From NCBI GenBank assembly GCA_036490175.1, contig DASXEJ010000272.1, positions 1-64,000 on the forward strand: 64,000 bases of DNA, written 5' to 3'. This stretch comes from Pirellulales bacterium. GTDB taxonomy: Bacteria > Planctomycetota > Planctomycetia > Pirellulales > JACPPG01. Positions 48,396 through 63,567 of this stretch are shown here, in pieces (the stretch's first letter is position 1; each line of letters starts with the position of its first letter). A model generated the notes under the pieces. It was not told the DNA's origin and ran no database searches. It saw only the letters and a list, made by a program, of their open reading frames with translations. The position numbers were made by a program, and so were the translations under genes.

Positions 48396-48842
48396 CTACT
48401 GCAACTGTCTCAGCAGGACCACTTGATACGCGATCAATAGCGCGTACAGCGCGGCCAATATCGGCACCAGGTGGCGGATCCGCGAATGCGTGCCGAACAG
48501 CACCAACAGCGGCAGGCCAGCGGCGGCCAGCACATATTTGCCGATCAAGAAATGCACGGGCCCCCAGGCGAGTAGCGCATGCATTACAGGATTGGCTTCA
48601 TGATAGCCAGCTTCGATCAGCTCGAGCGTCAGAAACCCATCGACCAGTGCGCAGGCCAGCAGCACCAGGATTGGCAATATGGTCGCGAGAGAAAACCGGT
48701 CGACGATGTGCCGCTGCAATCGGTCGCAGGCGCGTCGGATGTGACGGCGTTCGCCGCGAAAGAACGTCGCATCCCAGACGCTCGTCGGCGCTCCTCGTCG
48801 ATCGGACGCGGTCCGCCGCTCTTCTGACCCAGCGCGATCCAT
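48396..48842 (-). CDS. small membrane protein, DUF5658-like
   Basis: A 148-residue protein with a cytoplasmic, arginine-rich head (EERRTASDRRGAPTS) and three hydrophobic helices (LATILPILVLLACALVDGFLT; FLIGKYVLAAAGLPLLVLF; LVPILAALYALLIAYQVVLL). The loop HEANPVMHALLAWG matches DUF5658, a small family of unknown function. GGCGGAGA lies 4-6 bases before the ATG ending at 48842, so I prefer it to the one 6 codons upstream. It is the first gene downstream of the secretion cluster on the same strand but probably has its own promoter. Confidence 0.75.
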   Translation of the reverse strand: MDRAGSEERRTASDRRGAPTSVWDATFFRGERRHIRRACDRLQRHIVDRFSLATILPILVLLACALVDGFLTLELIEAGYHEANPVMHALLAWGPVHFLIGKYVLAAAGLPLLVLFGTHSRIRHLVPILAALYALLIAYQVVLLRQLQ

Positions 48843-48864
48843 GTCATTCTCCGCCCACATTTTG

Positions 48865-48949: not shown

Positions 48950-49336
48950 TCAGGAGGGGGGCGTCGTGGAGGTGAATAATAGCGGCATCGGCGCGGGGCT
49001 TTCGTTGTCGGCCGTGGGCGCGACCTGCACTGACCAGTTGCCGACATCCTGCGTGGCGAAGGTGACGGTAAACGCCTGCGGACCGCTGGAGGTGTTGATC
49101 GACACGCCGCACACAAAAGGATTAGTCGGCGGATAACCGGTCTCCAGAAGTTCCAACGCTTGGGCCAACGCCGGAACGCAGCCCGCGTCGCGTGTGACCG
49201 TTTGCGCGCGTGCCGTCTCGGCGCGAATCAAAGATCCGAGCTGGCTGTAGGCCAACGCCAATACTGAGAAGAACATAACCAGGAACGCGAGCACCAAGAG
49301 CATCGCGTAACCGGGCCTGTGCGGTTTGCGCTTCAT
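48950..49336 (-). CDS. minor pseudopilin, GspK/PilX-like, lacking Glu5
   Basis: A 128-residue protein at the end of the secretion operon. After a short basic leader (MKRKPHRPG) the sequence Y-A-M-L-L-V-L-A-F-L-V-M has the class III prepilin form, but position +5 after the presumed cleavage is Leu, not Glu. Loss of Glu5 is a hallmark of GspK and PilX tip subunits. The protein is much shorter than GspK (usually around 300 residues) and lacks its large insertion domain. The start overlaps the previous gene's stop (ATGA), so translation is coupled. Expected place: the tip of the pseudopilus. Confidence 0.7.
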   Translation of the reverse strand: MKRKPHRPGYAMLLVLAFLVMFFSVLALAYSQLGSLIRAETARAQTVTRDAGCVPALAQALELLETGYPPTNPFVCGVSINTSSGPQAFTVTFATQDVGNWSVQVAPTADNESPAPMPLLFTSTTPPS

Positions 49337-49872
49337 GGTCTTTTGGCGATCATGGTGTAAGTCTGCGAAATACCCCGATAGAAAAACGACAGCATGATTC
49401 GCAGATCGCCGCTTTGGTCTTCCACGGTCAGACCCGAGACATTCTGCGCAGCGACATATTCCACACCGGTCGCCTGATTCGATCGGACCAGCGTATCGCC
49501 GACGACGGCATAGACAACCACCGTGTCCGGCAGAGTCCAATCGGCCACGAGGTTGGGATCCGTGGCCGAGTCGAAGCACAGCATAAGCTCGACATTGTCT
49601 GGGTAAGTCCAGCCGACAAACTGATTCGCCAGCTTCACGCCGGCCGTCCCTTCGGGCAAGCAACCTCCCAGGTCGAGCGACAGGCAAGCCAGCGCCAGGT
49701 CTGCCTCTTGCGCGATGTGACAACGAGCGGCATTTTGCAGCAACGGGCGCCCCAGACCGATCCAGGCATTCGACAGCAACATCGAGAGCAGCACCACCAG
49801 ACCGGTGCTGATCGTGACTTCGACCATGCTGAATGCCCGCCGGTGGCGATGGCGGCCGTATCTCTTGGTCAT
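49333..49872 (-). CDS. minor pseudopilin, GspJ/PilW-like
   Basis: A 179-residue prepilin-type protein. The leader MTKRYGRHRHRRA is followed by F-S-M-V-E-V-T-I-S, so the cleavage site would be Ala13|Phe14 with Glu18 at +5. Ala in place of Gly at -1 is tolerated by some prepilin peptidases. The long beta-rich C-terminal part (VVVYAVVGDTLVR, IMLSFFYRGI) and the operon position suit GspJ/PilW. Start and stop overlap the neighbours by 4 bases each. A frame that continues 57 codons upstream overlaps the preceding gene and is unlikely. Confidence 0.78.
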   Translation of the reverse strand: MTKRYGRHRHRRAFSMVEVTISTGLVVLLSMLLSNAWIGLGRPLLQNAARCHIAQEADLALACLSLDLGGCLPEGTAGVKLANQFVGWTYPDNVELMLCFDSATDPNLVADWTLPDTVVVYAVVGDTLVRSNQATGVEYVAAQNVSGLTVEDQSGDLRIMLSFFYRGISQTYTMIAKRP

Positions 49873-50300
49873 GGCTGCGTCGTTTGTATCGTGATGAAGG
49901 CTGTGATGGTCTGGTTGGTCAGCGACCGTTCGAGAGACTGAATCTGCACGGTATTTTGGGTCAGGGTTTGCGTGTCGGCCGGCAGTATCGTTCCCGGATC
50001 CTGGTCGGCCAGCGCCGCGGCCGCGCCCAGCTTGCGCGTCCAAATATCGGCCGTGGGAACAAGGTAGTAGACCGACTGTGGACTAAATCTTTGCTGCAGA
50101 TTTCTCAACTGCTTCGTATACATAACCATGTACGGGCCCAGCCCAGCCAGCGCAATGCCAAACAGCACCAGAGCCACCTGGACCTCGACCATCGAGAAGC
50201 CGGCCTGACTGCGCCACCGGCGCGCGCGGCACCATCGCGCGTGCGGCTGGTGCCGTCGCGCGCTGGCGGCAATCGTCGCAGATGCTGTGTTGCGATTCAT
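49869..50300 (-). CDS. minor pseudopilin, GspI/PilV-like
   Basis: A 143-residue prepilin. An unusually long basic leader of 34 residues precedes G|FSMVEVQVALVLFGIALAGL, with Glu39 at +5. Short globular part with Asn/Gln/Thr-rich end. The size and place in the operon (after an H-like, before a J-like gene) match GspI/PilV. Several ATGs are possible (50300, 50309, 50333); I use the one ending at 50300. The TGA overlaps the next ATG. Confidence 0.78.
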   Translation of the reverse strand: MNRNTASATIAASARRHQPHARWCRARRWRSQAGFSMVEVQVALVLFGIALAGLGPYMVMYTKQLRNLQQRFSPQSVYYLVPTADIWTRKLGAAAALADQDPGTILPADTQTLTQNTVQIQSLERSLTNQTITAFITIQTTQP

Positions 50301-50316
50301 GGTCGAGCGCATTGCG

Positions 50317-50778
50317 TTAATAGCTGAGAACAATATTCGTCACCCCGGAACCCGACAGGACGCCGGACATCGATCCACTCTGATCGATGCAGAAGGCGCC
50401 ATTCCAGGTCTGGTTCGCCACGCGCATCGCAGAGGCCGAGAACGTTGTCGAAGTAGCGTAATCGACTTCGTAGGTGTAAAAGTTCTGATCGGAAATGGAA
50501 GAATCAAGCAGGTCCAGCGATTGCAAGGTTGCCAGATCGACCGCATAAGTGCGATTCTCAAGCCAATACAGCCGCTGCGCCGACCAAATGGCGCGCAGAT
50601 TGGCGGACGCAATATCGGCCCGCGATTGTTCCAACGCCTGATGAAACGAGGGGACCGTCAACGAGGCCAGGATGCCGATGATCACCGTGACCATCACGAT
50701 CTCGATCAGCGAGATGCCCCGCCGTGGCTGTACGCCAAGTCGCCGGCAGCGCCGTTGGATTGTGAAACCATCTCGCAT
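50317..50778 (-). CDS. pseudopilin, GspG/GspH-like
   Basis: A 153-residue prepilin with leader ending R-R-G21 and mature start ISLIEIVMVTVIIGILASL, Glu26 at +5. The sequence IGILASLTVPSFHQALEQSRADIASANLRAIWSAQRLYW is close to the GspG/major pilin helix. The C-terminal half has a disulphide-free beta region. Since another GspG-like gene lies at 57082, this one may act as the H-type or as a second major subunit. Its ATG overlaps the gspF stop by one base (TAATG). A longer frame open to 51858 runs inside gspF and is not coding. Confidence 0.82.
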   Translation of the reverse strand: MRDGFTIQRRCRRLGVQPRRGISLIEIVMVTVIIGILASLTVPSFHQALEQSRADIASANLRAIWSAQRLYWLENRTYAVDLATLQSLDLLDSSISDQNFYTYEVDYATSTTFSASAMRVANQTWNGAFCIDQSGSMSGVLSGSGVTNIVLSY

Positions 50779-51872
50779 TAGTGCACCTTGCCGGCCATTT
50801 CGAACATCGGCATGTAAATCGACAGCATCAGCGCGGCAATCGTGACACCCATTCCGGCAATGATGATCGGCTCCAGCAGCTTGGTGACCTTGGAAATCAA
50901 ACCTTCCATCTTTTCCTTGTAGAATGGAGCCAGCTGATCCATAACTTGAAAGAGTTGCCCTGATTCTTCGCCGATCCGCACCATGTCGGTGATCATCGAG
51001 GTGAACAGGCCGGTTTCTTCCAGCGCCACGGCCAACGGCCGACCGCCGGCGACGCGCGCCCGGGCCCGGTCCAATCCGTCGCGATAGATCGGGTTGGCGT
51101 GAAATACTCCCGACAGCACCGACATGGTCTCTAACATGGGAATGCCGCTTTTCAGCAGCAAGGCAATGTTCGAGGCAAAGCGGTACATCGCCATTTGCAC
51201 GATCAATTCGCCGACCATGGGCAGCCCTAACCCCACTCCCAAAAACTGGCGGCGTCCTTGTTCGGTTTTCAGATATTGCCGGATGCCAAAGATCGCGGCG
51301 CCGACGGCCAGCACGATGTACAGGCCGTAAGCCACGATAAAGCCCGACGCGTCGACGACGAATTGCGTCATGCCGGGCAGCTCGGCCCCCATGTCGGAAA
51401 ACATCTTGGCGAACGTCGGCACGACCAGCCACAACAGCACGGTCACAGCGGTGATGGCAACGCCGATGAGGATCATCGGATACATCAGCGAGCCGACGAC
51501 CTTCTTGCGCGTGTCGCGCGATTCGCGAATCTGCTTGTTCAACTCCAACAACACCGAACCCATTTGACCCGTGATCTCGCCGGTGCGAATCACGCCGATC
51601 CAATGGTGCTCGAAAACCTCGCCGTGGCGCTCGGCCGCGGCATTGAGCGTGCTGCCGGCGGCAATGCTCGAGGCGATCTCCTCCAGAACCTGCCGCATTT
51701 TCAAGCTGGGATTTTGCTCGGCCGAGATGCGAATAGCCTGCATCAGCGGCGTGCCGGAATTGACCAGCGTGGAAAGCTGCTGAAAGAACGTCATCTTGTC
51801 GTCGAGCTTGATCTTTTTGTGCGGTTTGCTCGACACTCGCGCTCGGGCGATAAACCAATCTTCAAATGCCAT
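50778..51872 (-). CDS. gspF: type II secretion / type IV pilus platform protein GspF/PilC
   Basis: A 364-residue inner-membrane platform protein. Two T2SSF domains are visible: MTFFQQLSTLVNSGTPLMQAI with GEITGQMGSVL near residues 25-125, and MYRFASNIALLLKSGIPMLETM with GEESGQLFQVMDQLA near 225-330. Three membrane spans separate and end them (VGSLMYPMILIGVAITAVTVLLW; IVAYGLYIVLAVGAAIFG; PIIIAGMGVTIAALMLSIYMPMF). It anchors the GspE ATPase and couples ATP hydrolysis to pseudopilin assembly. The N-terminal region is shorter than in PilC. It lies 18 bases from the PilZ gene and overlaps the next gene. Confidence 0.95.
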   Translation of the reverse strand: MAFEDWFIARARVSSKPHKKIKLDDKMTFFQQLSTLVNSGTPLMQAIRISAEQNPSLKMRQVLEEIASSIAAGSTLNAAAERHGEVFEHHWIGVIRTGEITGQMGSVLLELNKQIRESRDTRKKVVGSLMYPMILIGVAITAVTVLLWLVVPTFAKMFSDMGAELPGMTQFVVDASGFIVAYGLYIVLAVGAAIFGIRQYLKTEQGRRQFLGVGLGLPMVGELIVQMAMYRFASNIALLLKSGIPMLETMSVLSGVFHANPIYRDGLDRARARVAGGRPLAVALEETGLFTSMITDMVRIGEESGQLFQVMDQLAPFYKEKMEGLISKVTKLLEPIIIAGMGVTIAALMLSIYMPMFEMAGKVH

Positions 51873-51890
51873 ATGCTGTCGTTCCTGCTG

Positions 51891-52223
51891 CTAGATCTTC
51901 ATGATGCGGCGCATCAGTTGCGGGCTGGCCGAGGCACTGAGGGGTTCCAGAAACTCCACCCCCAAGCGATTGACATCGGCGTCTGCGTCGCAACGAGCGA
52001 CCCGGCCACTGACTTTGTTCACGGTTTCTTTTCCCGACCCATCGCGAAGCGTGAAAGACAACGTCACCATGCACCCTGGCGCCAGGGCCCGCGGTGCGGC
52101 CAGCCCCACGCCCGCCAGGCTGATGTCGAACGAGTGCGCCTCGAAGGTCGGACCGTCCGGCAATGCCGTCAGCGACACATCGCAAAAGAACGGCACTCTT
52201 TCAAAACGTCTTCGTTCGTTCAT
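51891..52223 (-). CDS. single-domain PilZ protein embedded between gspE and gspF
   Basis: A 110-residue PilZ domain. Both c-di-GMP-binding motifs are intact: RxxxR in RRRFER at residues 4-9, and DxSxxG as DISLAG near 33-38, so it should bind the nucleotide. It has no other domain. Lying between the assembly ATPase gene and the platform gene on the same strand, it is a natural candidate to pass a c-di-GMP signal to this machine. Some PilZ proteins bind pilus ATPases directly (the Xanthomonas PilZ-PilB-FimX case). The assignment of partner is inference. Confidence 0.88.
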   Translation of the reverse strand: MNERRRFERVPFFCDVSLTALPDGPTFEAHSFDISLAGVGLAAPRALAPGCMVTLSFTLRDGSGKETVNKVSGRVARCDADADVNRLGVEFLEPLSASASPQLMRRIMKI

Positions 52224-52319
52224 GGCGACATCTCACCTCTAGAAACACTTTGTCGCTTTCAACGTCGTAGCAATGCTTCACTTCCCAGACGTCCCGTTTT
52301 CACGGTTGCTCGTTTTCCA

Positions 52320-54098
52320 TCATTCCTTGGCCATCGCGATCGAGAGGGCTTCTTCCAGGCTTGTTATTCCTTGGCGCGCTTTGTCCAATGCGCTGTCCCC
52401 CAGCATCTTCATCCCTTCGCCGCGCGCGGCTTCGCGCAGCTCGGGCAGGGGCGTGCGCTTTTGAATCAATTCGCCCATGTTGCTGGTGATGCGGACCACC
52501 TCGAAAACGCCCACGCGGCCGCGGTAGCCTGTACCGCGGCACTTGTCGCAACCTTTGGCGCGAAAGATTTCGTGTCCTGAGTCGAATCCATACAGGCGGC
52601 TGGTCGCTTCATCGCACTCGTCAGGCTGTTTGCAGTCCTTGCACAGCCGACGAATCAATCGCTGTGCTTCCAGCACGCGCAGCGTGGCGGCCAGCAGAAA
52701 CGGTTCGATGCCCATGTCTTGCAAACGACTGACGGCCGACAACGAATCGTTGGTATGAATCGTCGACAGCACGAAGTGCCCGGTCAGCGCGGCCCGCAGA
52801 CAAATTTGCGCCGTTTCCTGATCGCGCACCTCGCCGACCATGATCACGTCGGGATCTTGCCGCAACAGAGCGCGTAGCACGCTGGCAAACGTCAGGCCGA
52901 CCTGCGATTTCACCTGGATTTGGTTCATGCCGTCGAACTTGTATTCGACCGGATCTTCGACCGTGCAGATGTTAACGTCGGGCTGGTTGCGAAAGTTCAG
53001 GCAGGCGTAGAGCGTGGTGCTTTTCCCGCTACCGGTCGGACCGGTTACCAGCATCAAGCCGTGCGGCGACTCGATCGACTCGGTCAGGTCTTTGGATTGG
53101 CGCTCGTCGAATCCCAGCCCGGTAAGCTGCACTGGAATGGCGGCTTTGTCCAAAATACGCATGACGATCTTCTCGCCCCACACGGTTGGCACCGTGCTGA
53201 CGCGCAAGTCGATGCGCTTCTCCGCCGTTCTCAGACCGATGGCGCCGTCTTGAGGAACCCGCTTTTCGGCGATGTCCATCTTGGCAAGAATCTTGAAACG
53301 CGAAACGACTGGCAAATAGACCGACTGCGGCGGGGAAATCAATTCGTGCAGCACGCCGTCGACCCGGATGCGGACGCGGCACGTTTCCTCGAACGGCTCG
53401 ATATGGATATCGCTGGCCCCCTGTTTCAACGCCTGTTCGAGAATGTCGTTGACGATCTGGATCACGCGACCCTCGGGGCCAGGCGGCAGAGACTGATCCA
53501 GGTTCAGGACCTCTTCGTCATCCGCAAACTCATCCTCATCGTCGTCGACCTCGTCAGGCGCCATCGGCCGGCCGAGCTTGGCCGCCTGCTTGCCCGGCGC
53601 CGCGTCATGCTTGATCGTTCGCTTCTTCGCCTTGTGCGTACTGTTCGCTGAGAAGTAAATCTCGATCAGCGTCTCGAGCGCCGTGCGCGCGGTTATCACC
53701 GGCCTCACCACCAGACCCGTCAGAAACTCGATCTCGTCGACGATCAATAGACCGTCGGGATTGACGAAGGCGACCTCGATCGTTTCCGCGTCGACCGCGA
53801 TCGGCGCGATCATTTGGTCGCGGCACAGCTTCTCGGGCAGCTGCCGCGCCACGGTGCGATCGATCGTCGTCACGTCTTCCGGCAGCGCGAAGATCGGCGC
53901 GCCCAGGTATTCGGAATAGACCTCGGCCACGTCTTGCTCTGTGGCCAGCCCCTTCTCGACCAGCAACGTTTCGACGGTCCCCCCTTCGCCGGGCTGAGCG
54001 TTGCGCAATTCCTCCGACTGCTCCGGGCTGAGCAATCCCTTGTCGAGCAACAACTGCACGACTGTGGGCAAGGAGTCATTAAGTTCTGCTATGGGCAT
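52320..54098 (-). CDS. gspE: type II secretion / type IV pilus assembly ATPase GspE/PilB
   Basis: A 592-residue hexameric-type ATPase. The N-terminal T2SSE_N/MshEN-like repeat pair (LLLDKGLLSPEQSEELRNAQ; LLVEKGLATEQDVAEVYSEYLG) lacks the RLG lead-in typical of c-di-GMP-binding MshEN, so nucleotide binding there is doubtful. An acidic linker (DEVDDDEDEFADDEE, near 178-195) follows. The motor has Walker A GPTGSGKST at about 351-359, an Asp box, Walker B DPDVIMVGEVRD at about 413-424, a His box, and two cysteine pairs CKDC and CDKC that hold zinc in GspE/PilB. It powers pseudopilus assembly on the inner membrane. Its gene lies 8 bases from the GspC/PilP-like gene. Confidence 0.95.
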   Translation of the reverse strand: MPIAELNDSLPTVVQLLLDKGLLSPEQSEELRNAQPGEGGTVETLLVEKGLATEQDVAEVYSEYLGAPIFALPEDVTTIDRTVARQLPEKLCRDQMIAPIAVDAETIEVAFVNPDGLLIVDEIEFLTGLVVRPVITARTALETLIEIYFSANSTHKAKKRTIKHDAAPGKQAAKLGRPMAPDEVDDDEDEFADDEEVLNLDQSLPPGPEGRVIQIVNDILEQALKQGASDIHIEPFEETCRVRIRVDGVLHELISPPQSVYLPVVSRFKILAKMDIAEKRVPQDGAIGLRTAEKRIDLRVSTVPTVWGEKIVMRILDKAAIPVQLTGLGFDERQSKDLTESIESPHGLMLVTGPTGSGKSTTLYACLNFRNQPDVNICTVEDPVEYKFDGMNQIQVKSQVGLTFASVLRALLRQDPDVIMVGEVRDQETAQICLRAALTGHFVLSTIHTNDSLSAVSRLQDMGIEPFLLAATLRVLEAQRLIRRLCKDCKQPDECDEATSRLYGFDSGHEIFRAKGCDKCRGTGYRGRVGVFEVVRITSNMGELIQKRTPLPELREAARGEGMKMLGDSALDKARQGITSLEEALSIAMAKE

Positions 54099-54106
54099 GG
54101 TGCACC

Positions 54107-54871
54107 TTAGTGCGTCGCTTCCAAGAGTTCGCGGGCGCGATCCGCCGCCGCTTTTCGCTTCTCGCCCGAGGCGGGCGCGTGGACGTCGGACTCGGTTTCC
54201 TGCGGCGGCTCCTCAGCGGCAATTCTGTGCTTCTCGACCGGGGCTTCGTGCTTGACTGCGGGCGGATCACCGCCTGGATGCACTGCCGGAGCGTGGGCCT
54301 TGATCGAGGCCCGCGCCGGAGTATCTTTGGTCGGCGACTCGTGGCTGGCATAGGCCAGTTCCGCGTGGCGACCGTCGATGCTCACAATCACCCGATCGAC
54401 CTCCACCCGCGCGACGGAAGCCGCCACGGCCGTTGGCCCTGCCGGGGTAATCTGCTCTCCTTCGCTGTACAGCAAGCCGTTGATCACGGCCATGCGGCGT
54501 TTGCCGCGAACGTACGTTCCACTCAGCACCAGCCCTTCGATGCGCTGTACCGGCGCCCCTGGTTGCCGCGGCTTGTTGCCCTGCGCGGCCGTTGCGGGCG
54601 CTCCTGGCGCGGTCGTGGCCTTCGCTTGCTTGTCAGGTGCGCGCGGCGCCGGCTCGGGCGGCATCTCGACGGTGGGCGGCGCGAAAGGATCGCGCTCGAG
54701 ATCCGGCGCCGCGGGGGGCGAAAGCAGCGCCGCGGTCAACTCAGGCGTCTTGGCGGCCGCTTTCGCCGGCGGCGCCATCACCGCTGGCGCATCGAAGTGC
54801 GACCAGCAGAAATAACCCATCGCGCCTGCCACGACGCCAATCGGCACCAACTTGGCGACTCTTGTTGACAT
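54107..54871 (-). CDS. GspC/PilP/GspB-like inner-membrane connector
   Basis: A 254-residue bitopic protein: short cytoplasmic start, one membrane span (LVPIGVVAGAMGYFCW), a long Pro/Ala-rich linker, and a small homology-region-type beta domain at about 105-165 (IEGLVLSGTYVRGKRRMAVINGLLYSEGEQI). That core pattern, L-x-G with A-V-I-N-G and E-G-x-x-I, is shared by GspC, PilP and GspB, which tie the inner-membrane platform to the secretin. The tail is His/Pro/Ala-rich and probably disordered. One base separates it from the PilO-like gene. Which of the three families fits best cannot be settled by eye. Confidence 0.78.
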   Translation of the reverse strand: MSTRVAKLVPIGVVAGAMGYFCWSHFDAPAVMAPPAKAAAKTPELTAALLSPPAAPDLERDPFAPPTVEMPPEPAPRAPDKQAKATTAPGAPATAAQGNKPRQPGAPVQRIEGLVLSGTYVRGKRRMAVINGLLYSEGEQITPAGPTAVAASVARVEVDRVIVSIDGRHAELAYASHESPTKDTPARASIKAHAPAVHPGGDPPAVKHEAPVEKHRIAAEEPPQETESDVHAPASGEKRKAAADRARELLEATH

Positions 54872-54872
54872 A

Positions 54873-55415
54873 TCAACCCATGATCCCCACCACGGTCAGA
54901 CTCACCATCAGCATTCCCTTTCCGTTACGGACGGGTTGAATGCTGACCGAGTCGATCCGGATGAAACGGTCGTTGGTTTCCAGCCACTTCAAGAAGTCGT
55001 TGATGTCGCGCAAGGCCCCTTCCAGATCGATTCGCAGAACCACGGCCTTGTAGGGGCCGACATCACGCACCTTGTCGGGGTCGAGCGTCAGCAGCTTCAA
55101 GGGAAACTTGCGCACGCCACCCAGCACGTATTGAACCCATTCGTTGGTGTCTGACTTGGCCGGCAAACGATCCTTGAAGCTCTTATATTGTTCGCGCAGC
55201 TTGTCGATATCGCGGACGACGTCGAGCCGCTTTCGTTCCACGGCCAGGTTCTCGCGGCTCTTGTCGATCTGGGCGCTCAGCGGTCCGTAAATTCCCATAT
55301 AGGCCACGGCCAGTACGGCACCGGTTAACAGCACGCGCAACTGGTTGGCATTCTGGATGCGGCGGCCGCTCTTCTTTTTGTCCGAAGGACGACGCTTGCG
55401 CGGGGAAACGCTCAC
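54873..55415 (-). CDS. pilO: PilO-like inner-membrane protein
   Basis: A 180-residue bitopic protein. It starts at a GTG whose GTGA overlaps the stop of the upstream fusion gene, with AAGGAGG 8 bases before it. A basic cytoplasmic head (RKRRPSDKKKSGRR) is followed by one span (LLTGAVLAVAYMGIYGPL), a coiled-coil (DKSRENLAVERKRLDVVRD) and a ferredoxin-like PilO domain (VVLRIDLEGALRDINDFLKWLETNDRFIRIDSV). PilO pairs with PilN in the alignment subcomplex between platform and secretin. The end IQPVRNGKGMLMVSLTVVG is typical. Confidence 0.85.
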   Translation of the reverse strand: MSVSPRKRRPSDKKKSGRRIQNANQLRVLLTGAVLAVAYMGIYGPLSAQIDKSRENLAVERKRLDVVRDIDKLREQYKSFKDRLPAKSDTNEWVQYVLGGVRKFPLKLLTLDPDKVRDVGPYKAVVLRIDLEGALRDINDFLKWLETNDRFIRIDSVSIQPVRNGKGMLMVSLTVVGIMG

Positions 55416-56935
55416 TTGTGCGCCTCCTTGCCGGCCGGCTTCGGCGCCGCGGGTCCGCCTGTGGTGGCTTTCGGCAGGCACACGACCGTAAACATGGCGG
55501 TAGGTTTTTTATCCTTGGTGTTCGGCTGGGTGCATTTAATGTCTGCCAGCTCGACCAAGGGAAAGTCCTGCTGCAACATCGGGTGGCCGCGCAGCGCGGT
55601 TAAAAAACCATCGATCTCCTTCGGCGTGGCGCCGTCGTCGCCGATGGGCGCTTCGGCCCGCACGCTGAACGATTTCTTGGTCTTGCCCTTCGTGGGATCG
55701 TCGAGTTCGCACACCCCCTGGAACATGGTCAGCGTGGCGTTCTCGGGCAGCCGGCCGGCGATGTCGTACGTGTACCTGGTCCACAACACGCGACTGCCGA
55801 CGAATTTCTGAATCGCGTCGACCTTCTGCGTCAGATCGCGTTGTTCCTTGAGCAGGTCCGCCTGCTGCTTCGGAACGGCCCACGATCGTTTAGCGAGCTC
55901 GGCGCGCAGCGGCGCGACTTCTTTGCGCGCGTGGTGCGATCGACCTAGCATGAACAACGCCATGCACAGCACCAGCGCGACCTGCACGGCACATTCGCCC
56001 AGGGGAAATATCTGCCACAACGAAGGGCTGGGCGTCAGCGATTGCGACAGGTCGACCACTTCGCTGGATTGCTCACCCAGGCAGCCCACAGCCAGTCCAT
56101 AGGCCACGGCTTCGCCGGTCAGCTCGGGCCCCTCGCACCATGAGACCGTAGCTCCGACCTTCTGCGCGAATTCGTCGCGCGTGAGCTCGCCGCGCAGATC
56201 GGCGCGGCCGTGTACGACGACGATATCAAGCGGCGCATCGATGCCAAAATGGCTGACCAACGTCTGGCAGGAGCGGATTGCCGAGCAGAGGGCCGGTAGC
56301 TCGTTGCCGCTGACCAATTTGAACGGTTTCCACAGCACGCACATCGTGCCGGCGGTGACCACGGCCAGCGCCTCGCGCTGGCCCAAAAACAAACGCAGCG
56401 CCGGCTTGGACCTGCGCACGCGACGTTTCGTGATCGCCACCCGCAGCAAAGCAAACGGCGCCGGCTCTGTCCGGAAGGGCTGCACGTTGCTTTCGCGCAG
56501 CGTCTGCAATAGATCGAACAGATACTCGCGGCGGCAGGAGACCACGCTGGCCAACTTGCGTTTGCCAAACTCGCCCTTGACGACTTGCACCGACAGCTCG
56601 TCGATACAGACATTGGGGGATTGCAGCATCTCTCGCAGGACGGTTTGCGCCGAATTGGCTGCTCCGCTGGCGCTTAGCGGTCGCGTCGAGAAGAAAACCC
56701 GCCGCGTCGGCACGCCGACGGCCACAGGAACACCGCGCTTCTTGGGATCGACCAGTGGCTTGAGAAGTTGCGCGACAACGTCGTCTAGTTGATCGGCCGC
56801 ATACTTCTGGCTGTGACGCGCAAGTTCTACCAGGCCCAGCGGTGTGCTGACCACCTTGCTGACGAAGACTTCATCCTCGCCGACATACAGGCCGAGGCCC
56901 TTGTAGGGCATGAATTTGGCCAGCAGCGCTTTCAC
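55412..56935 (-). CDS. PilM-PilN (GspL-like) fusion of the secretion machine
   Basis: A 507-residue protein combining what are usually two genes. The N-terminal 310 residues look like a PilM/GspL actin-fold domain (KGLGLYVGEDEVFVSKVV, PVAVGVPTRRVFF, LIVVVHGR-like and GEAVAYGLAVGCL), though the nucleotide-binding motifs are weak. A membrane span follows at about 322-342 (VQVALVLCMALFMLG), then a coiled-coil and a PilN-type periplasmic domain (LWTRYTYDIAGRLPENATLTMFQGV). GspL has the same overall plan. I start at the GTG ending at 56935, where GspL/PilM-like sequence begins; an ATG at 56911 or 56992 is possible. The end overlaps pilO. Confidence 0.8.
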   Translation of the reverse strand: MKALLAKFMPYKGLGLYVGEDEVFVSKVVSTPLGLVELARHSQKYAADQLDDVVAQLLKPLVDPKKRGVPVAVGVPTRRVFFSTRPLSASGAANSAQTVLREMLQSPNVCIDELSVQVVKGEFGKRKLASVVSCRREYLFDLLQTLRESNVQPFRTEPAPFALLRVAITKRRVRRSKPALRLFLGQREALAVVTAGTMCVLWKPFKLVSGNELPALCSAIRSCQTLVSHFGIDAPLDIVVVHGRADLRGELTRDEFAQKVGATVSWCEGPELTGEAVAYGLAVGCLGEQSSEVVDLSQSLTPSPSLWQIFPLGECAVQVALVLCMALFMLGRSHHARKEVAPLRAELAKRSWAVPKQQADLLKEQRDLTQKVDAIQKFVGSRVLWTRYTYDIAGRLPENATLTMFQGVCELDDPTKGKTKKSFSVRAEAPIGDDGATPKEIDGFLTALRGHPMLQQDFPLVELADIKCTQPNTKDKKPTAMFTVVCLPKATTGGPAAPKPAGKEAHK

Positions 56936-57010
56936 AGACCACTCTCGCGTAAGGCAAGGTATGTGCTTTGAATTCCAGCATCTGAAACTCAACCGACTGT
57001 CACGTGGGCG

Positions 57011-57044
57011 AAAAAAGAGGGCGGCTGACGAATCAGCCGCCCTC
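57011..57044 (-). terminator. rho-independent terminator with UUCG loop after the major pseudopilin
   Basis: Read on the minus strand, GAGGGCGGCTGA, TTCG, TCAGCCGCCCTC is a perfect 12-bp stem with the very stable UUCG tetraloop, followed by six T. It lies 38 bases past the pseudopilin stop and 75 bases before the PilM-PilN start, so it separates a pseudopilin transcript from the machine genes. Confidence 0.92.
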
Positions 57045-57081
57045 GGAGCCGTCGACTCAAACTAAGCAATGCACAGCAGGA

Positions 57082-57558
57082 CTAGCTCCCGCTGCCGCTG
57101 CCACTGCCGCTACCGGAAATGGTGGCACCGCTCGGATTGATGTCATTCGGGATGGTGCTGTTCGTGGTGTCGAAACCCGACTCGGTGAAGATCACCGTGT
57201 AGGCGCCGTAACCCGACGATGAACCGCTACGCGTCAAGGTCGAGCTCCACGAGTTCTCGAGGCTGCCCGTGCTGCCCGCAACGGGATCGGCAACGGTGAA
57301 ATATTGGGGGGCGGGAAAGCTGATGTCGAGGTTGAGAATCGCGCTGGCATAGGTGCCGTTTTGCGATTGGTAGCGTTCCTGCGAGTCGCGAACGGCCGAC
57401 AGGTAGTTGAACGCTTCCGCGGCCTTCGAACGCTCGACCGACTTCAGGAAGCGCGGCACGCCGAACGATGCCAAAACGCCGATGATCACGATGACCACGG
57501 CCAACTCGACGAGGGTAAACCCTCCACGTGACAACTCAGACGACGGTCGACGACGCAT
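57082..57558 (-). CDS. gspG: major pseudopilin, GspG-like
   Basis: A 158-residue prepilin, probably the main subunit of the pseudopilus. The leader MRRRPSSELSRGG is cut before F14; the mature start FTLVELAVVIVIIGVLASFGVP is textbook, with Glu18 at +5. The globular part has the GspG-type YLSAVRDSQERYQSQNGTYA helix-turn but no disulphide. The C-terminus is a run of Ser-Gly pairs. AAAGGAG lies 7 bases before the ATG. It is followed by a strong terminator, so its output can exceed that of the machine genes, as expected for the subunit needed in most copies. Confidence 0.92.
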   Translation of the reverse strand: MRRRPSSELSRGGFTLVELAVVIVIIGVLASFGVPRFLKSVERSKAAEAFNYLSAVRDSQERYQSQNGTYASAILNLDISFPAPQYFTVADPVAGSTGSLENSWSSTLTRSGSSSGYGAYTVIFTESGFDTTNSTIPNDINPSGATISGSGSGSGSGS

Positions 57559-57945
57559 GTGTTTCTCCTTTAACTTCCACAGCTTGGTGCGTGTGGTTGC
57601 CGCGCGGAGCGGGACGCGACGGGAACATCCCGTGCAATGGCGTCCATCGACCTTCCAGCCGCATGGGTACGACTTGAAGTGTTAATCTGCTCTCCGCAAT
57701 TGCATGTGCAACGCTAGTAAAGTCTTTAGGCCAATACATTGGATTGTCAATTTTCGTGCTGGCAATTCGCCGCTTCACGTCCGCGCGAATGAAACAATTC
57801 GCGCACGCGGCTGGCACCACTGGCGGCACGTTGCACACGGGCGCGGTGACGTTGCGAAAGTGCTACGACAAGACCTCGCAGAACCAGTACACGCCGCACA
57901 ATCGGGCGCGTACGCAGCGGCAAGACGAGCGCCGGCCCGGCGACG
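57559..57945. other. 387-base gap between secretin and pseudopilin genes
   Basis: No gene is supported. It is more AT-rich than its surroundings near 57680-57780 and holds the likely pseudopilin promoter described separately. It implies a leader of about 160 bases before the pseudopilin start codon. Confidence 0.45.
57722..57750 (-). promoter_or_regulatory. possible promoter of the major pseudopilin
   Basis: On the minus strand a perfect TTGACA (plus 57745-57750) is followed after 16 bases by TAAAGA (57723-57728), a weak -10. The spacer contains CCAATGTATTGG, a 5-bp inverted repeat around two bases, at 57731-57742, which could be an operator. The -10 mismatch keeps confidence low. Confidence 0.35.
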
Positions 57946-60558
57946 TTAGAATTTGCCCTGCACGACGGTCGGCAAGGGCTTTGGCACGCCGGCCGACAAC
58001 AATTGCTTCGAGGGGAAGCCGTCGTTGAATTTGATCTCGCAGCCGCTGTTGGGGTTCCAGATGTGCGTGGTCAGCAGCACGATCAACTCTTTCTTGACGA
58101 CGTTCGTCGAACGATTACGGAAAAACGCCCCGACCACAGGCAAGGTGCTGAACCAGGGAATGCCGTTCTGCGTGATCTCGACTTGCTTGTCCATCAAACC
58201 GCCGATGACCAGCGTGGCGCCGTTGGGGACCATGACGTTGGTCGTGACTTCCGACGTGCTGGCCTGCGGAATGCTGTTGACGATGGCGCCGGTGCTGCGT
58301 TCGGGGTGGACCTCCATGCGGACCATGCCATCGCTCGAGATAAACGGTCGCACGCGCAGCAGAGTTCCCACGTTCATGAAGCTAATTTGTTGGGTGGTGC
58401 TGACGATGCTCTGACTGAACGTGCTATAGCCCAACCGGTCTCCTAATTGCAACTCGGCGAGTTGCTTGTTCAGCACCAGCAGGCGCGGCGTGGCCAGCAC
58501 TTCGACCGAGCCGATCGTTTGTAGTGCCGAGACGAAACTGGTCAGATTCCGGCTCGAGTTACCAAACTTGAAAGCCTGGTCGTCGGTAGCAAAGCCGGTG
58601 TTAGACGGGCCCGTGGTCCCCGATGATGTCGAACTGGTTCCCGATGTGGCGGTGGCGGGAATACCGCCGCGGATCAAACCTGACGTGAGAACTCCCAGCG
58701 GCGAGAAGCCGGCGGCCGCGTTCAACGTCGCTCCGTCGCCAAACACACCCAACATGTTGCCCGCCCCGTCGAGAAGGCCGAAGTTGACCCCCAGGTCGCA
58801 ACTGTTCGTATGCGTCACGTACAGGATCACGGCTTCGATCAAGACCTGCTGCGGTTGCACATCCAATTGCATGATGACCTGGTCGATCTTCATGAGCGCC
58901 GATTCGTGATCTTCGATCACCAGGGCTTCTTCATTCGCTAACGAGTCGCCGCCGGACAGCGACTGCTGGCCGCCGCCACTACTGCCGCCACCACCACCTC
59001 CTCCTCCACCGCCGCCGCCACCGCCACCGGAAGAGCCGCCGCCACTGCTGGCTGCCGTACCGCTGATCGGATTGATCGGACGGATGCCCACCTGGCTGGC
59101 CGGAGTAGCGGTGATATGCCCATCGGGACTGAGGAATTGTTCGATCATTTTCTTGATGTCGGTACTGCGCGTGTAATTCAGCCGGTACACGCGAATGTCG
59201 ACCTTGTCTTCCTTCGATCCGCCGTTTCTGGCTCTGAGTTCCTCGGGCGTGTGAACGTAGATGATGCCATTCTCGTGCCGGGCACCCAGATTGCACGATT
59301 TCAGAATCGCATCCAGCGTTTGCTCTACCGATAGGTTGGACGACAAATCGGCGGTCACGGTCCCTTTCACGTTGGGCGATACGAGAATATTCAGGGCGTG
59401 GTCGCGACTTAACATTTCCAACACCTTGCGGACGTCCACGCCGTCGAGGTGCAACATAGTCGTATTGTTGCCCAGCTTCAGATCAGGTCCCGATTGCAGA
59501 CCAAGCTCGTCGGGTCGTATCGAAGGTTCCCGGTTGACCGGACGCGATGGCCCGCGCGTCGCGGCGCCCCGAGTCCCCGGCACGGGCATTTCCAAGGGCT
59601 CGGCGCCGATCACCTTCAGATAGTCGTCCTCGGTCTGCGGCCCACCCATCGCGCCGTCGTTGTCATCGCCGACGTCACCATCACTGTCGCCATCTCCGTT
59701 GCTGTTGCCATCACCGTCGCCGGCGTTGTCGCCATCGCCGTCCCCTTCGTCTTGGTCCGTGTCATTCGATTTCGGTGGGGCGGCAGTCGGTTCCGGAGGT
59801 CCCGGCGCCGGCGCGGCGGTTGCACTATCGGATGATCCCACGTCGAACGGATCGTCACCTTGACCGGCCCCGGATCGCGCCTGAAACGCCGCCTGATTCG
59901 CGCGTGACGAGGTCTGCTCCCCATCGGCCAAGGGGGCGAGGGCTTGAACTTGTTGGATCTGGCCCGGCTGTAGCCCGGCACCGCGGTCCCGAGCGGCGGC
60001 GTCTTTGGCGGAAGCCTCTCCACCGCGCCCTTTCTTCGAGAGGCCGGCGAATCGATCTTTGAACGACTTCTTAAGCGGCTGCTGCGTGTGTGAGTCGTCG
60101 CTGGCCGTTGACGTCTTGTTCGGCATATTTGCCGGCGAGATCTTGGATGTCGCGTCCGGAGCCAAACCGACCGGCTGGCGAAGGCTGCTGTACGAATCGC
60201 TCTTGGCCTTAAAGATCGCCACCTGTTCTTCGGTGGCCTGGCCAGGCACGCCGTAGTCGCCGCTCTTAAGCGATATGGGGGTCGCGCATCCCACGCTGAA
60301 CGCTACGCCCAGTCCCAAAAGCATCGCCGGCAGGGAAAATGCCCGAGCGGCATTGCTGGTGGTTGGCCGGGCAGCCTGGGGTTTTTCACCCAGCGAGCGA
60401 CTCGGCAGATCCGGCCGCATAGAAGTGGGAACAACAGTCGGACCTGCTTCCGTCCGGCCTCGGCCGCTGCCGAAAATCCGCGCAGCGATCGCCAGGCCCG
60501 AGGGCTGATCAGACATCCGACACGACGAAGCCAATTTCCAGGCTTCCCTACGTTCCAT
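57946..60558 (-). CDS. gspD: secretin GspD/PilQ with acidic DGD linker and polyglycine loop
   Basis: An 870-residue outer-membrane secretin. A hydrophobic signal near 74-90 ends in SVGC (Cys91), a possible lipobox, behind an unusually long N-terminal extension. Residues 266-302 are an Asp-Gly-rich tract like calcium-binding thrombospondin type 3 repeats. N0/STN-like sequence begins near 366 (MLHLDGVDVRKVLEMLSRDHALNILVSP), an N1-type domain near 452-480, and between them and the next N-domain lies a Gly/Ser insert with 15 consecutive Gly (511-525). The beta-barrel secretin domain covers about 690-850 (VEVLATPRLLVLNKQLAEL, VPNGATLVIGGLMDK, PVVGAFFRNRSTNVVKKELIVLLTTHI). It forms the outer-membrane gate for the machine encoded downstream. 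Confidence 0.93.
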   Translation of the reverse strand: MERREAWKLASSCRMSDQPSGLAIAARIFGSGRGRTEAGPTVVPTSMRPDLPSRSLGEKPQAARPTTSNAARAFSLPAMLLGLGVAFSVGCATPISLKSGDYGVPGQATEEQVAIFKAKSDSYSSLRQPVGLAPDATSKISPANMPNKTSTASDDSHTQQPLKKSFKDRFAGLSKKGRGGEASAKDAAARDRGAGLQPGQIQQVQALAPLADGEQTSSRANQAAFQARSGAGQGDDPFDVGSSDSATAAPAPGPPEPTAAPPKSNDTDQDEGDGDGDNAGDGDGNSNGDGDSDGDVGDDNDGAMGGPQTEDDYLKVIGAEPLEMPVPGTRGAATRGPSRPVNREPSIRPDELGLQSGPDLKLGNNTTMLHLDGVDVRKVLEMLSRDHALNILVSPNVKGTVTADLSSNLSVEQTLDAILKSCNLGARHENGIIYVHTPEELRARNGGSKEDKVDIRVYRLNYTRSTDIKKMIEQFLSPDGHITATPASQVGIRPINPISGTAASSGGGSSGGGGGGGGGGGGGGGSSGGGQQSLSGGDSLANEEALVIEDHESALMKIDQVIMQLDVQPQQVLIEAVILYVTHTNSCDLGVNFGLLDGAGNMLGVFGDGATLNAAAGFSPLGVLTSGLIRGGIPATATSGTSSTSSGTTGPSNTGFATDDQAFKFGNSSRNLTSFVSALQTIGSVEVLATPRLLVLNKQLAELQLGDRLGYSTFSQSIVSTTQQISFMNVGTLLRVRPFISSDGMVRMEVHPERSTGAIVNSIPQASTSEVTTNVMVPNGATLVIGGLMDKQVEITQNGIPWFSTLPVVGAFFRNRSTNVVKKELIVLLTTHIWNPNSGCEIKFNDGFPSKQLLSAGVPKPLPTVVQGKF

Positions 60559-60961: not shown

Positions 60962-62419
60962 TTACGCCTCGTGGAACTGAACGGCTGGCTTCGCGGCAGC
61001 GATAGCTTCGTCCCGCGACGCGGCCACCACGCGATTGCGCCCTTCACGCTTGGCGTGGATCAGTGCTTGATCCGCTCGATCGACCAGGCTGTCGAACTGA
61101 TCTCTTTCACCCTGACACACCGCCACGCCAAAGCTGGCCGTCACGATGATGGAGCCTTCGACCACGGCGACGGGGCTATCCTCCAGGGCCGCCCGCAGAC
61201 GGTCGGCTAGCTGCACCGCCCCCAGCTCGGATGCATCGGGCGCGATCACACAGAACTCTTCTCCGCCGTAACGCGCCAGGATATCGGCCGGACGACATTG
61301 CTGCGTCAGAATCGTGGCGACCCGTTTCAGGACCGTGTCGCCAATCGTATGGCCGTGGGTATCGTTGACGATTTTGAAATGGTCGATGTCGAGCATGATG
61401 CAGGACAGCGGTTGGCCGCTCCGTTGAGCGCGGCTCCATTCGCGATCGAGGCGATCGCGCAGACTGCGGCGGTTCAACACGCCCGTCAAGGGGTCCAAGT
61501 CCGAAAGTATCCGCAGATCGCGCTCGCGCTGGCGTGCTTCTTCTTGCTGTCGATCGACTTCGTTCAGCGTGCGGGCACTGTACCAGGTCACGCGCGCCAG
61601 GACAGCTACCATCGCCACGGCATGCACGGCCACGGCCGATTCAAAGCCGTACAGTTCCATCTGTTCCCCCTTCAGAAAGAACCAGCCCAGCATCAAGGGG
61701 GACGCCGCAATGCCCGGCAACGAAGTGCGGGCCAGCACCCCGCCCATGCGTTGACTGCGCAGCGGCATCATCAATTCAAAATCGCGGCGTGCGTACAGCA
61801 TGCCGATGCTGACAAACAGCAGAATCAGCGCAGTCGCCAGCGGGATCGATGTGTAGGGATCCGTCGCATGCAGCGTTTCGGTGCCATACCAGGCTCTGGC
61901 CACGGCGATCGAGGAAATAAACAATGTCGTGAGCAGCAGGCATTGGGCGGTCCGCTTGGGCCACACGCCTGTCGAGGGGAGCCAGAACAGGGCGCTTCCC
62001 AGCAGGATAAAGGCCACAGCGGTGGCCGGTTCGAGCCGGCCGATAGACAGTTCTTCGACGGCTCGCTGCCGCATGTTTTCGCGCAAGCCCACCTCTTCGC
62101 GGAATAGATCGCTGGCCCAGGCCACGGTCGAAACCAACACGATGGCCAAACCCGCGCCCCGCACCACGAACGAGCGCCAGCTGGCCGAGGTATTCAGCAG
62201 AAACGACCATAGTGCCATGCCCACCAATGTGAACAGCATGGCGACCGTGGGCGTCATAACCAGCGAAATCGCCCAACGCCCATTAGATAATGCCGCGTTG
62301 CAGGCCGCACTGATCAGGGTTGTCAGGCCGCCCAATAGCGCCAAAGTGCTCGACGCAGTGACGATGAAGGGAATCCCCTCCACGGTACACGCGTTTACTA
62401 TTTCTTTCGTTGAGATCAT
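60962..62419 (-). CDS. membrane diguanylate cyclase (GGDEF) with intact I-site
   Basis: A 485-residue cyclase making c-di-GMP from two GTP. About eight hydrophobic segments fill the first 290 residues, forming a membrane sensor I cannot assign to a named MASE family. A short coiled coil (RTLNEVDRQQEEARQRERDL) leads to the GGDEF domain: DPLTGVLNRRSLRDRL, DIDHFKIVNDTHGHTIGD, and the active site GGEEF. RPAD five residues before GGEEF is the product-inhibition I-site. The ATG ending at 62419 is chosen because a longer frame runs into the next gene (S1/P1 nuclease), overlapping it. Nearest neighbours on the same strand are the secretin and pseudopilin genes, and the operon has a PilZ protein. Confidence 0.92.
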   Translation of the reverse strand: MISTKEIVNACTVEGIPFIVTASSTLALLGGLTTLISAACNAALSNGRWAISLVMTPTVAMLFTLVGMALWSFLLNTSASWRSFVVRGAGLAIVLVSTVAWASDLFREEVGLRENMRQRAVEELSIGRLEPATAVAFILLGSALFWLPSTGVWPKRTAQCLLLTTLFISSIAVARAWYGTETLHATDPYTSIPLATALILLFVSIGMLYARRDFELMMPLRSQRMGGVLARTSLPGIAASPLMLGWFFLKGEQMELYGFESAVAVHAVAMVAVLARVTWYSARTLNEVDRQQEEARQRERDLRILSDLDPLTGVLNRRSLRDRLDREWSRAQRSGQPLSCIMLDIDHFKIVNDTHGHTIGDTVLKRVATILTQQCRPADILARYGGEEFCVIAPDASELGAVQLADRLRAALEDSPVAVVEGSIIVTASFGVAVCQGERDQFDSLVDRADQALIHAKREGRNRVVAASRDEAIAAAKPAVQFHEA

Positions 62420-62616
62420 CTGCCGACCCAGGAAATGCCATAGCCGTTCTGGCCTTTTATGGAAGAAGCCTAGGTCAAGGAATCGTGCCACGCGCAGCCC
62501 CGACGCTCGAATCCTGCATCTGGGGAAACTGCCGCGTGCGACGGCTGGACCGAAAAGGTTGCTCATGCCGAAGATGCACGCGAGCGCGCGATTTAGAGAA
62601 GGACGCGCTGCCGGCT

Positions 62617-63567
62617 TCAGGGAACTATCTGCTCGAGCACGAAGGCCAGGCGTTCGCCCGCCTTGCCAACGCACACCCGTGCTACGAGACCAGCCTGTTT
62701 CGCGTACGGTTCCGGCAGATCAGGCGCGACGCTCGCCTGGCGATGACGTTCGGCGACCGCCGGAATGACGCGGCCGCCGTCGTACGCGTAAGTGGTGGCC
62801 AGCGCAAAACTCTCTCGGGCCCACGACTCGATGGTGGGATTCGTCTGCAACTCGCGTGTGATCTCGGCGCGATTCGCGTCGACGGCTTGCTGTGCTTCGT
62901 CGGCGCCTCGTTCAATCGAGGTCTTCGTATCGGCAGTGCCCAACAAGTCGTCCCAGAAAGAGTGCAGCTTGATGATCCTGCGCCCGGACAGCCGGTAGAG
63001 CGAATCTTCTCCGCCGTGATCCCCCTTGGGAAATTCGGCGCAAACAAGATCCGCGCAGTGCAGCGGCTGGTGAATGTCTCCCATCAGGTGCAGCACCCAG
63101 CACAAGTACATGGCCTTTTCCTGACCGGTCGCGCCGCGCGCTTTCTCGATACTCAGCGGCAGCGCGGTGAGGATATTCTCTCCCACCGGCTCATGATTCT
63201 GCGCATTCTCGGTCGAGCCCGGCGGCACGAAGGGCAGATTGACGTAGTGCCAGTGCGGCTTGCTGAACTGCTCATGATGGTGCTTCACCCAATCGGGCCA
63301 TGTCGCCGCGCGCCACAGGGCCCATTGATCCTCAGGCACGTTTTGCGGCCGGTCGGCATTGAGGAATTCGGCCCAGTGCGGATGCTGCTTGAGAATCTCG
63401 ACCAGCGCCTGCCGCTGCTGCGGAGTCAGATGCCGATACGCCAGCTCGGCCACCACCATATGCCCCTTATCGTTCCAGGCCAGCGCGGGCCCGGCCAGCA
63501 GCAAAATCAGGGCCATCGCCAGGACGCCCCGCCGCAGCATGGCATCCTTCGCAATCTTGGTCCGCAT
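62617..63567 (-). CDS. exported S1/P1-type zinc nuclease
   Basis: A 316-residue S1/P1 nuclease. Signal peptidase cleavage before Trp in ALA|WNDKGH exposes the N-terminal tryptophan, whose amino and carbonyl groups bind zinc in this family. Other zinc ligands are visible: GH of NDKGH, WPDWVK aspartate, WHYVNLP, LHLMGDIHQPLH and GDHGGED, LHSFWDDLL. It cleaves single-stranded DNA and RNA and 3'-nucleotides, here outside the cytoplasm, perhaps for phosphate scavenging. GGAAGGA lies 6 bases before the ATG ending at 63567, preferred to one 7 codons upstream. Followed on the same strand by the GGDEF gene. Confidence 0.93.
   Translation of the reverse strand: MRTKIAKDAMLRRGVLAMALILLLAGPALAWNDKGHMVVAELAYRHLTPQQRQALVEILKQHPHWAEFLNADRPQNVPEDQWALWRAATWPDWVKHHHEQFSKPHWHYVNLPFVPPGSTENAQNHEPVGENILTALPLSIEKARGATGQEKAMYLCWVLHLMGDIHQPLHCADLVCAEFPKGDHGGEDSLYRLSGRRIIKLHSFWDDLLGTADTKTSIERGADEAQQAVDANRAEITRELQTNPTIESWARESFALATTYAYDGGRVIPAVAERHRQASVAPDLPEPYAKQAGLVARVCVGKAGERLAFVLEQIVP

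Follow-up and report, generated by a model that had tools for sequence, protein, structure and literature searches.

The closest described systems to the gene cluster treated here are the type IVa pili (T4aP) of Acinetobacter and Neisseria together with the Hof system of E. coli, and the type II secretion systems (T2SS, Gsp). The cluster lies on the minus strand at positions 48950-60558 of a 64,000-nucleotide stretch of a Pirellulales genome (contig DASXEJ010000272.1), which we call the window. With moderate confidence, we regard it as a planctomycete type IV filament machine that shares ancestry with T4aP and most likely forms a surface fibre. Its genes are the following, in minus-strand order:

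57946..60420, minus strand: secretin D (824 aa, start codon ATG at 60420), in an open reading frame (ORF) extendable to 60558
57082..57558, minus strand: major pilin G, GG/FTLVE cleavage motif (N_methyl 25 bits)
55412..56935, minus strand: L, PilM-PilN fusion of 507 aa (AlphaFold2 model, pLDDT 75)
54873..55415, minus strand: M, PilO/GspM (PilO 27.6, T2SSM_b 25.5, both above cut-off)
54107..54871, minus strand: C, PilP/GspC-like (only weak matches, to T2SSB/GspB and GspC)
52320..54098, minus strand: assembly ATPase E with MshEN domain (PF00437 463.8, MshEN 50.5)
51891..52223, minus strand: PilZ-domain protein (PF07238 51.6 bits; RxxxR and DxSxxG motifs)
50778..51872, minus strand: inner-membrane platform protein F (PF00482 164.6 bits)
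50317..50778, minus strand: 'H', second GspG/PilA-like pilin, cleavage motif G/ISLIE (profile scores)
49869..50312, minus strand: minor pilin I, short in the window (domain scans)
49333..49872, minus strand: minor pilin J, A/FSMVE motif by eye (no Pfam or NCBIfam match)
48950..49336, minus strand: minor pilin K, 128 aa, lacking a glutamate at position 5 (Glu5) and the bulk of GspK (no Pfam match)
48396..48860, minus strand: DUF5658 membrane protein, a conserved partner (PF18902 51.2 bits)

With T4aP and Hof, the planctomycete system shares the grouping of E, F and D, a single Secretin_N domain and minor pilins of the H-K kind. It differs from T4aP in its fused PilM-PilN, in having no PilT in the locus and no AMIN domain in D, in forming one cluster with PilZ and DUF5658, and in staying below the PilB and PilQ cut-offs. 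Features shared with T2SS, including planctomycete Gsp loci (L159-L165), are the fused L, M, C, the order of the minor pilins and the lack of PilT. In contrast to T2SS, D yields one Secretin_N match instead of three, K is small, the system falls outside the T2SS rows of the concatenated tree, and the cut-offs for GspG, GspD, GspE and GspF are missed. A second T2SS type, in which L has a PilN domain, occurs in Comamonas, Skermanella, Bradyrhizobium and Methylomonas and is named Xcs-type. Because each class fails tested defining features, the system is, on the features compared, filed neither as T2SS nor as T4aP.

Another member of the same superfamily is present in the same genome, namely a planctomycete type IV pilus locus with the order E-PilT-E-F on contig C302. 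This locus has PilT and two PilB-like ATPases, and its E and F group apart from the PilM-PilN-fusion system in the trees. It appears to correspond to Plim_0410-0402 of Planctopirus, as described in the available part of PMC10632474. The Bacteroidetes 'T2SS' of Cytophaga is a secretin machine whose markers cluster with T4aP and which was reported as involved in protein secretion (Denise et al. 2019, PMC6668835, available part). The sole Bacteroidota row in our trees, from a Persicobacter plasmid, is a long, unstable branch placed apart from the planctomycete system. Dextran-binding pili-like fibres were reported on Planctopirus and Gemmata, and the part of that paper available to us names no gene for them (PMC5394234). 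Among the matches listed, no paper on this cluster was found by title and start of the abstract, subscription journals being mostly outside the scope.

T2SS and type IV pili are usually separated by gene content. If the tree presented below holds, the clade has the layout of one class and the ancestry of the other, and naming based on content would misfile it. In that case, the clade would also test whether a GspL-like fusion and the absence of a local PilT suffice for a secretion machine.

The twelve genes from D to K and their order had already been read from the sequence in an earlier note on this DNA, and both were confirmed. DUF5658 belongs with the set as a thirteenth gene. The claim that nearly all genes overlap by 1-4 bases does not hold. 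Only four of the eleven D-to-K junctions overlap (L/M 4, F/'H' 1, I/J 4 and J/K 4 bases), four have gaps of 1-18 bases, and three are wider (D/G 387, G/L 146, E/PilZ 96 bases), all figures depending on the chosen start codons. L, J and K lack any family match in Pfam, and L and J in NCBIfam as well. L was assigned by its fold, J and K by cleavage motif and position, and all three by conservation.

Profiles were used to count the genes in 22 near loci, that of the window among them, and in 11 deep planctomycete loci; many near loci are cut by contig ends, and two are pieces of one genome. In the near loci, F and I were found 21 times, E, H and J 20 times, K 19, G and C 18, L and M 17, DUF5658 16, D 12 and PilZ 6 times. 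The deep loci contain E and F in all 11 cases, D, G, L and M in 10, H, J and K in 9, I and C in 8, DUF5658 in 3 and PilZ in 1. Most near loci preserve the gene order; four (L065 of Aquisphaera insulae, L068, L133 and L134) are split into two divergent arms. In deep loci, D comes after F, and some are rearranged. The analysis leaves out loci L168 and L171 as well as L109-L119 and L136-L158. Since the set is conserved in other planctomycetes, the cluster is, judged from its sequences, real and not an accident of open frames.

Ancestry of E, F and D

The phylogeny was calculated from a concatenate of E, F and D with 39 rows, including 16 rows of the system, the planctomycete Gsp loci L159-L165, the second proteobacterial T2SS type, one MSHA-like row, one Bacillota row and planctomycete pilus rows. 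The stretches of Aeromonas (MSHA), Neisseria and Acetoanaerobium are unannotated, and their labels were assigned by us. In this tree the system forms one clade (100/100), which is grouped with the T4aP of Acinetobacter and Neisseria and with E. coli Hof (100/98), Hof being a long branch. Forcing the system together with 15 T2SS rows was rejected by the approximately unbiased test (p = 0.0058), as was forcing it together with the four classical T2SS rows (p = 0.0041). The corresponding T2SS groupings gave p values of 0.0178 and 0.0052 in smaller concatenates and of 0.0225 and 0.063 in the earliest set. A grouping of the 15 T2SS rows that excludes the system was not rejected (p = 0.272).

In quick single-gene trees, the system was again one group (E 99, F 99, D 94). 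With more references, its branch with Acinetobacter, Neisseria and Hof received values of 91 for E, 96 for F and 31 for D. Measured by the concatenate, common ancestry of E, F and D with T2SS was not found, and E alone and F alone reject nothing; common ancestry with T4aP was found, on few references.

The earlier note had proposed such a phylogeny and had considered a lineage-specific variant of type II secretion. A planctomycete clade of its own was indeed obtained. That it is a variant of T2SS is unsupported by the concatenated tree and by the domain plan of the secretin. As the outcome that would speak against its reading, the note had named a phylogeny in which every core part falls firmly into a single known class that also shares the gene order. 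At most half of this was found, namely the T4aP side, and gene order and fusion differ. If the tree is right, the PilM-PilN/GspL fusion arose twice, and the fused L and the T2SS-like layout would have arisen independently of GspL.

The sequence sets differed between the trees. In the trees made before the quick ones, the following were left out: from the E tree, the ATPase of the genome's own contig C95, HofB and Persicobacter; from the F tree, the C95 row and the second F row of L074; from the D tree, the Tad secretin; and from the E+F tree, Hof. The E+F+D concatenates contain no PilT rows and nothing from Persicobacter, Acaryochloris or Deinococcus. Also missing from them are the second pilus ATPases, the ATPases of L077 and L078, the near loci L055, L060, L070, L074 and L135 and the deep loci L120 and L122, and the secretin of own contig C393 is entered as a gap.

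Domain plans of the proteins

Prepilin motifs, an assembly ATPase, a platform protein and an A24 peptidase, the latter encoded in trans, place the system in the type IV filament superfamily. None of the ten cluster proteins scanned reaches an equivalog cut-off of T2SS or T4P, and their profile scores fall between those families, with PilB and PilQ on one side and GspE, GspD and GspF on the other. The term 'hybrid' used in the earlier note is justified to this extent; the mixed look arises partly because GspL equals PilM plus PilN and because type IV pili also have H-K pilins.

D consists of an N0 domain, a single Secretin_N domain broken by a poly-glycine run, and the secretin domain (PF00263, 129.2 bits). 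It scores 221.8 bits with PilQ (cut-off 284.4) and 218.5 bits with GspD (cut-off 351.4), these being equivalog or subfamily cut-offs, as are those of PilB, GspE, GspF and GspG given below. One Secretin_N match was counted in the D proteins of the window (one stretch, 22.3 bits, cut-off 28.2), L062, L065, L123 and L126, and it exceeds the cut-off only in L062. One match was likewise obtained for PilQ and HofQ, and three for the GspD proteins of K-12 and Skermanella. The GspD arrangement of N0 plus three Secretin_N domains was not found in D, which, as far as these weak matches indicate, looks like PilQ and not GspD in its plan.

Of the near D proteins, 5 of 11 show a lipobox pattern, compared to 0 of 8 deep ones, and window D has only SVGC. 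Three of the matches were judged plausible (L058, L060 and L070). Self-lipidation of the secretin as a rule was rejected on these numbers. In five deep loci, a lipoprotein-like gene was observed between D and H:

L122:5885-7171, lipoprotein-like gene
L123:11319-12266, lipoprotein-like gene
L125:10891-11988, lipoprotein-like gene
L126:12303-13451, lipoprotein-like gene
L128, lipoprotein-like gene

All three of these proteins that were scanned (L123, L125, L126) contain TPR repeats. The gene possibly encodes a pilotin, its position being one at which a PilF-like pilotin could be expected.

In the model of L, a single chain combines a PilM-like actin fold with a transmembrane helix, a coiled coil and a ferredoxin domain resembling that of PilN. 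This is the topology of GspL; the separate PilM and PilN of T4aP were not found. A fold search, which covered about residues 9-302 only and hence not the PilN-like part, yielded PilM with Z 20.7 over 271 residues and EpsL with Z 16.9 over 234 residues. L has no Pfam or NCBIfam match up to E 1. When its profile was compared with PDB sequences, PilM (E 0.0028) was the sole match among pilus and secretion proteins. GspL is described as the equivalent of PilM plus PilN in the available parts of PMC3815138 and PMC4471445. Because of this correspondence, the fusion alone leaves the class undecided, and the inference from alignment genes of the PilM-N-O-P type to a type IV pilus was rejected. A PDZ domain was not found in C by domain scans.

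E scores 599 bits with PilB (cut-off 675.7) and 557.7 bits with GspE (cut-off 630.3). Against PDB sequences, its profile gave 605 bits with full-length PilB and 543 bits with the best GspE. A 12-row alignment of E shows no variation at the Walker and tetracysteine residues. By eye, the N-terminus is devoid of the RLG motif, and the MshE-related motif for cyclic di-GMP scores 22.2, below the cut-off of 38. Given this degenerate MshEN start, the comparison suggests that any input of cyclic di-GMP would enter via the PilZ protein, which is present in only the six near loci counted above. A motif parse did not find DxSxxG in the PilZ proteins of L056, L057 and L059.

Both scores of the major pilin G, 44.5 bits with PilA and 41.8 bits with GspG (cut-off 88.9), are below the cut-offs. 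The G gene is copied in tandem in two deep loci, with four copies in L125:1241-3446 and two in L128:15448-16480. The pilin that the earlier note called H-like turned out to match GspG (43.4) and PilA (42.7) best, with GspH at 25.6 bits and all three below cut-off; in Pfam it passes only ComP_DUS (30.6). K has 128 aa compared to 285-327 aa in six GspK controls and 357-533 aa in planctomycete GspK candidates, which are weak matches. A large GspK with an extra domain was therefore not recovered in K. Glu5 is present in 0 of 24 K rows (mechanical parse) and is also missing from the six GspK controls (by eye).

Ten of 21 scanned I proteins match Golvesin_C of Pfam. A profile of this domain, which resembles carbohydrate-binding modules (CBM), was built from seven I proteins and matches ten distinct near loci (L054-L061, L071 and L074); across the loci searched, no ORF other than I was matched. 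The model of I from L056 has a pLDDT of 58 overall and of 66-86 by blocks over residues 121-220. It matches the final domain of xanthan lyase (Z 14.9 over 128 residues, root-mean-square deviation 2.5) and, at Z of about 10-12, carbohydrate-binding modules. Domains of Cry toxin and ephrin receptor, which have the same sandwich fold, are matched as well. In the model, the shared fold by itself shows no function. A pilin with a carbohydrate-binding-like domain in relatives suggests how bacteria living on polysaccharides may catch them. Together, the CBM-like I of ten relatives and the tandem G copies speak for an exposed fibre.

Distribution and coexisting systems

A scan with F in one genome per species (84,980 species), a method that finds close relatives only, yielded 16 loci, 14 of them planctomycete and two from Kineococcus at 31-32% identity. 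The planctomycete loci include those of Singulisphaera acidiphila, Singulisphaera sp. GP187 and Aquisphaera insulae. With L as the query, the system was found in 12 of the 294 genomes sampled from the phylum (own included), and F gave the same number. It was found in 17 of 198 genomes of the class (own included) and in 15 of 45 genomes of one other family. Four other genomes of its own genus, one of them 77% complete, gave only pilus-ATPase-level matches to E. By these counts, the system is patchy in the Planctomycetota. It is not the general planctomycete T2SS, the GspD-type secretins being widespread (over cut-off in 91 of the 294 genomes). A plasmid search with L gave no match. The ATPases of L077 and L078 are 46% and 43% identical to E, with an L-like neighbour in L078; no platform or secretin match was found in the 20-kb stretches of these two loci.

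The absence of PilT and of a prepilin peptidase from the cluster was confirmed. In the genome itself (95.8% complete), two A24 peptidases are encoded on contigs C102 and C149, in agreement with the expectation that this enzyme is supplied from elsewhere, and two PilT on C302 and C62. In 21 of 21 system-bearing genomes tested, PilT is encoded outside the cluster. The rule that H-I-J-K pilins without PilT mean T2SS was rejected, as type IV pili have H-K pilins too and PilT is found elsewhere in these genomes.

At least two genomes (G276 and G445) contain both a GspD-type secretin over the cut-off and the PilM-PilN-fusion system. From this coexistence and the spread of GspD it follows that the system does not simply replace T2SS. 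In the genome studied here, a single GspD-type match was obtained (E 1e-40), which is presumably window D itself, and a role in secretion may accordingly be conceived for this genome. Own contig C95 carries a cluster of E, F and pilin genes with a very divergent GspE-like ATPase (L018:6795-14298), and no secretin was found on this contig. Own contig C393 encodes a 1376-aa secretin behind two large proteins without Pfam match (L020:332-8378); it perhaps belongs to the PilT-bearing pilus of the genome.

Proposed mode of action and alternative explanations

The system is most likely to work in the manner of an adhesive type IV pilus. Starting from a primer formed by the minor pilins H-K, E and F would polymerise the processed G pilins, and L-M-C would couple this engine to D. 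The fibre would pass through D to the surface and stick to surfaces or glycans, with the prepilin peptidase acting in trans, as would PilT if the fibre retracts. PilZ may provide control by cyclic di-GMP. The analysis shows the gene set, its conservation, the trees within the limits given here, the domain plans and the predicted fold; export of the fibre, adhesion and regulation are steps that we infer. A more far-reaching version appears doubtful to us, in which the system is a separate Planctomycetota class of secretin-spanning filament machine, sister to T4aP, with an independent PilM-PilN fusion and a glycan-catching tip (the CBM-like I of 10 of 21), and a candidate for dextran-binding pili-like fibres such as those reported on planctomycetes.

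A number of observations weigh against a T4aP-related fibre. The few T4aP references and the naming of the tested groups after the first trees had been seen limit how the p values are to be read. Grouping with the four classical T2SS rows was not rejected in the first E+F+D concatenate (the p value of 0.063 above), nor was a T2SS grouping for E+F without D and Hof (p = 0.082), for E alone (0.071-0.111) or for F alone (0.184-0.19). The T4aP grouping was absent from the first F tree, in which holding the system with PilC and HofC gave p = 0.105; D alone supports the T4aP grouping at only 31. Restricted to its core, the E profile scores higher with GspE (1p9r, 539.5) than with Thermus PilF (474). 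F scores best with GspF (275.1 bits, cut-off 424) compared to PilC (239.7 bits, also under cut-off), and M with GspM_XpsM (39.5 bits, under the cut-off of 60). L is fused as in GspL, and its profile comparison (GspL 40, PilM 29) is not decisive. The Secretin_N matches of window D, L065, L123 and L126 are under the cut-off, so that extra copies may be too diverged to detect. The domain scan found no AMIN domain in window D, compared to two stretches in Acinetobacter PilQ and none in HofQ. A second ATPase (PilT) was not found in the stretches of the 33 loci, and I of the window is without the CBM-like domain.

Several of these points would fit the main rival, a type II-like secretion machine in which a short periplasmic pseudopilus made of G would push folded enzymes through D. 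It would be either a divergent T2SS or one that arose independently from a pilus, as has been proposed for the Cytophaga system. The fused L, the GspM-like M, the H-I-J-K pilins, the missing local PilT, a K without Glu5 as in the GspK controls and the single GspD-type match of the genome agree with it, and the single-gene trees do not reject it. The clustering of the Bacteroidetes 'T2SS' with T4aP (Denise et al. 2019, PMC6668835, available part) is a further point in its favour. However, the concatenated phylogeny, the PilQ-like plan of the secretin, the small K, the CBM-like I of relatives, the tandem G copies in L125 and L128 and the presence of a GspD-type secretin beside the system in G276 and G445 argue against secretion, which we consider rather unlikely. 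A DNA-uptake pilus of the Hof/Com kind would account for the grouping with HofB, HofC, HofQ and T4aP and for a secretin that, like HofQ, combines N0 with a single Secretin_N and lacks AMIN. Hof is a long branch, however, and the CBM-like domain on the I of relatives points to glycans, which makes competence improbable. It is hardly conceivable that the cluster is a chance resemblance or has decayed to a functionless state. The patchy occurrence (L in 12 of the 294 genomes) and the merely pilus-ATPase-level matches in the four congeners would be in line with decay, but the genes are open, near and deep relatives alike keep the set, and the Walker and tetracysteine residues of E do not vary in the alignment.

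For the adhesive fibre preferred here, a structure within the cluster is of relevance:

57017..57044, minus strand: strong intrinsic-terminator-like hairpin directly after pilin gene G, 12 pairs (9 of them G-C), then TTTTTT

The window contains 20 terminator-like sites compared to 11.5 expected. Of the 22 loci compared (15 near, 7 deep), 10 have such a hairpin 3' of G, whereas it occurs in 76 of 2200 single-base shuffles. The hairpin would fit production of the pilin in excess of the machine.

A gene for a GGDEF diguanylate cyclase is located directly upstream of the secretin gene on the same strand (60962-62674 of the window). The survey of conserved neighbours of near loci gave no lead. Three of the loci have a gene similar to the window's 3-keto-disaccharide hydrolase, whose family is abundant in planctomycetes.

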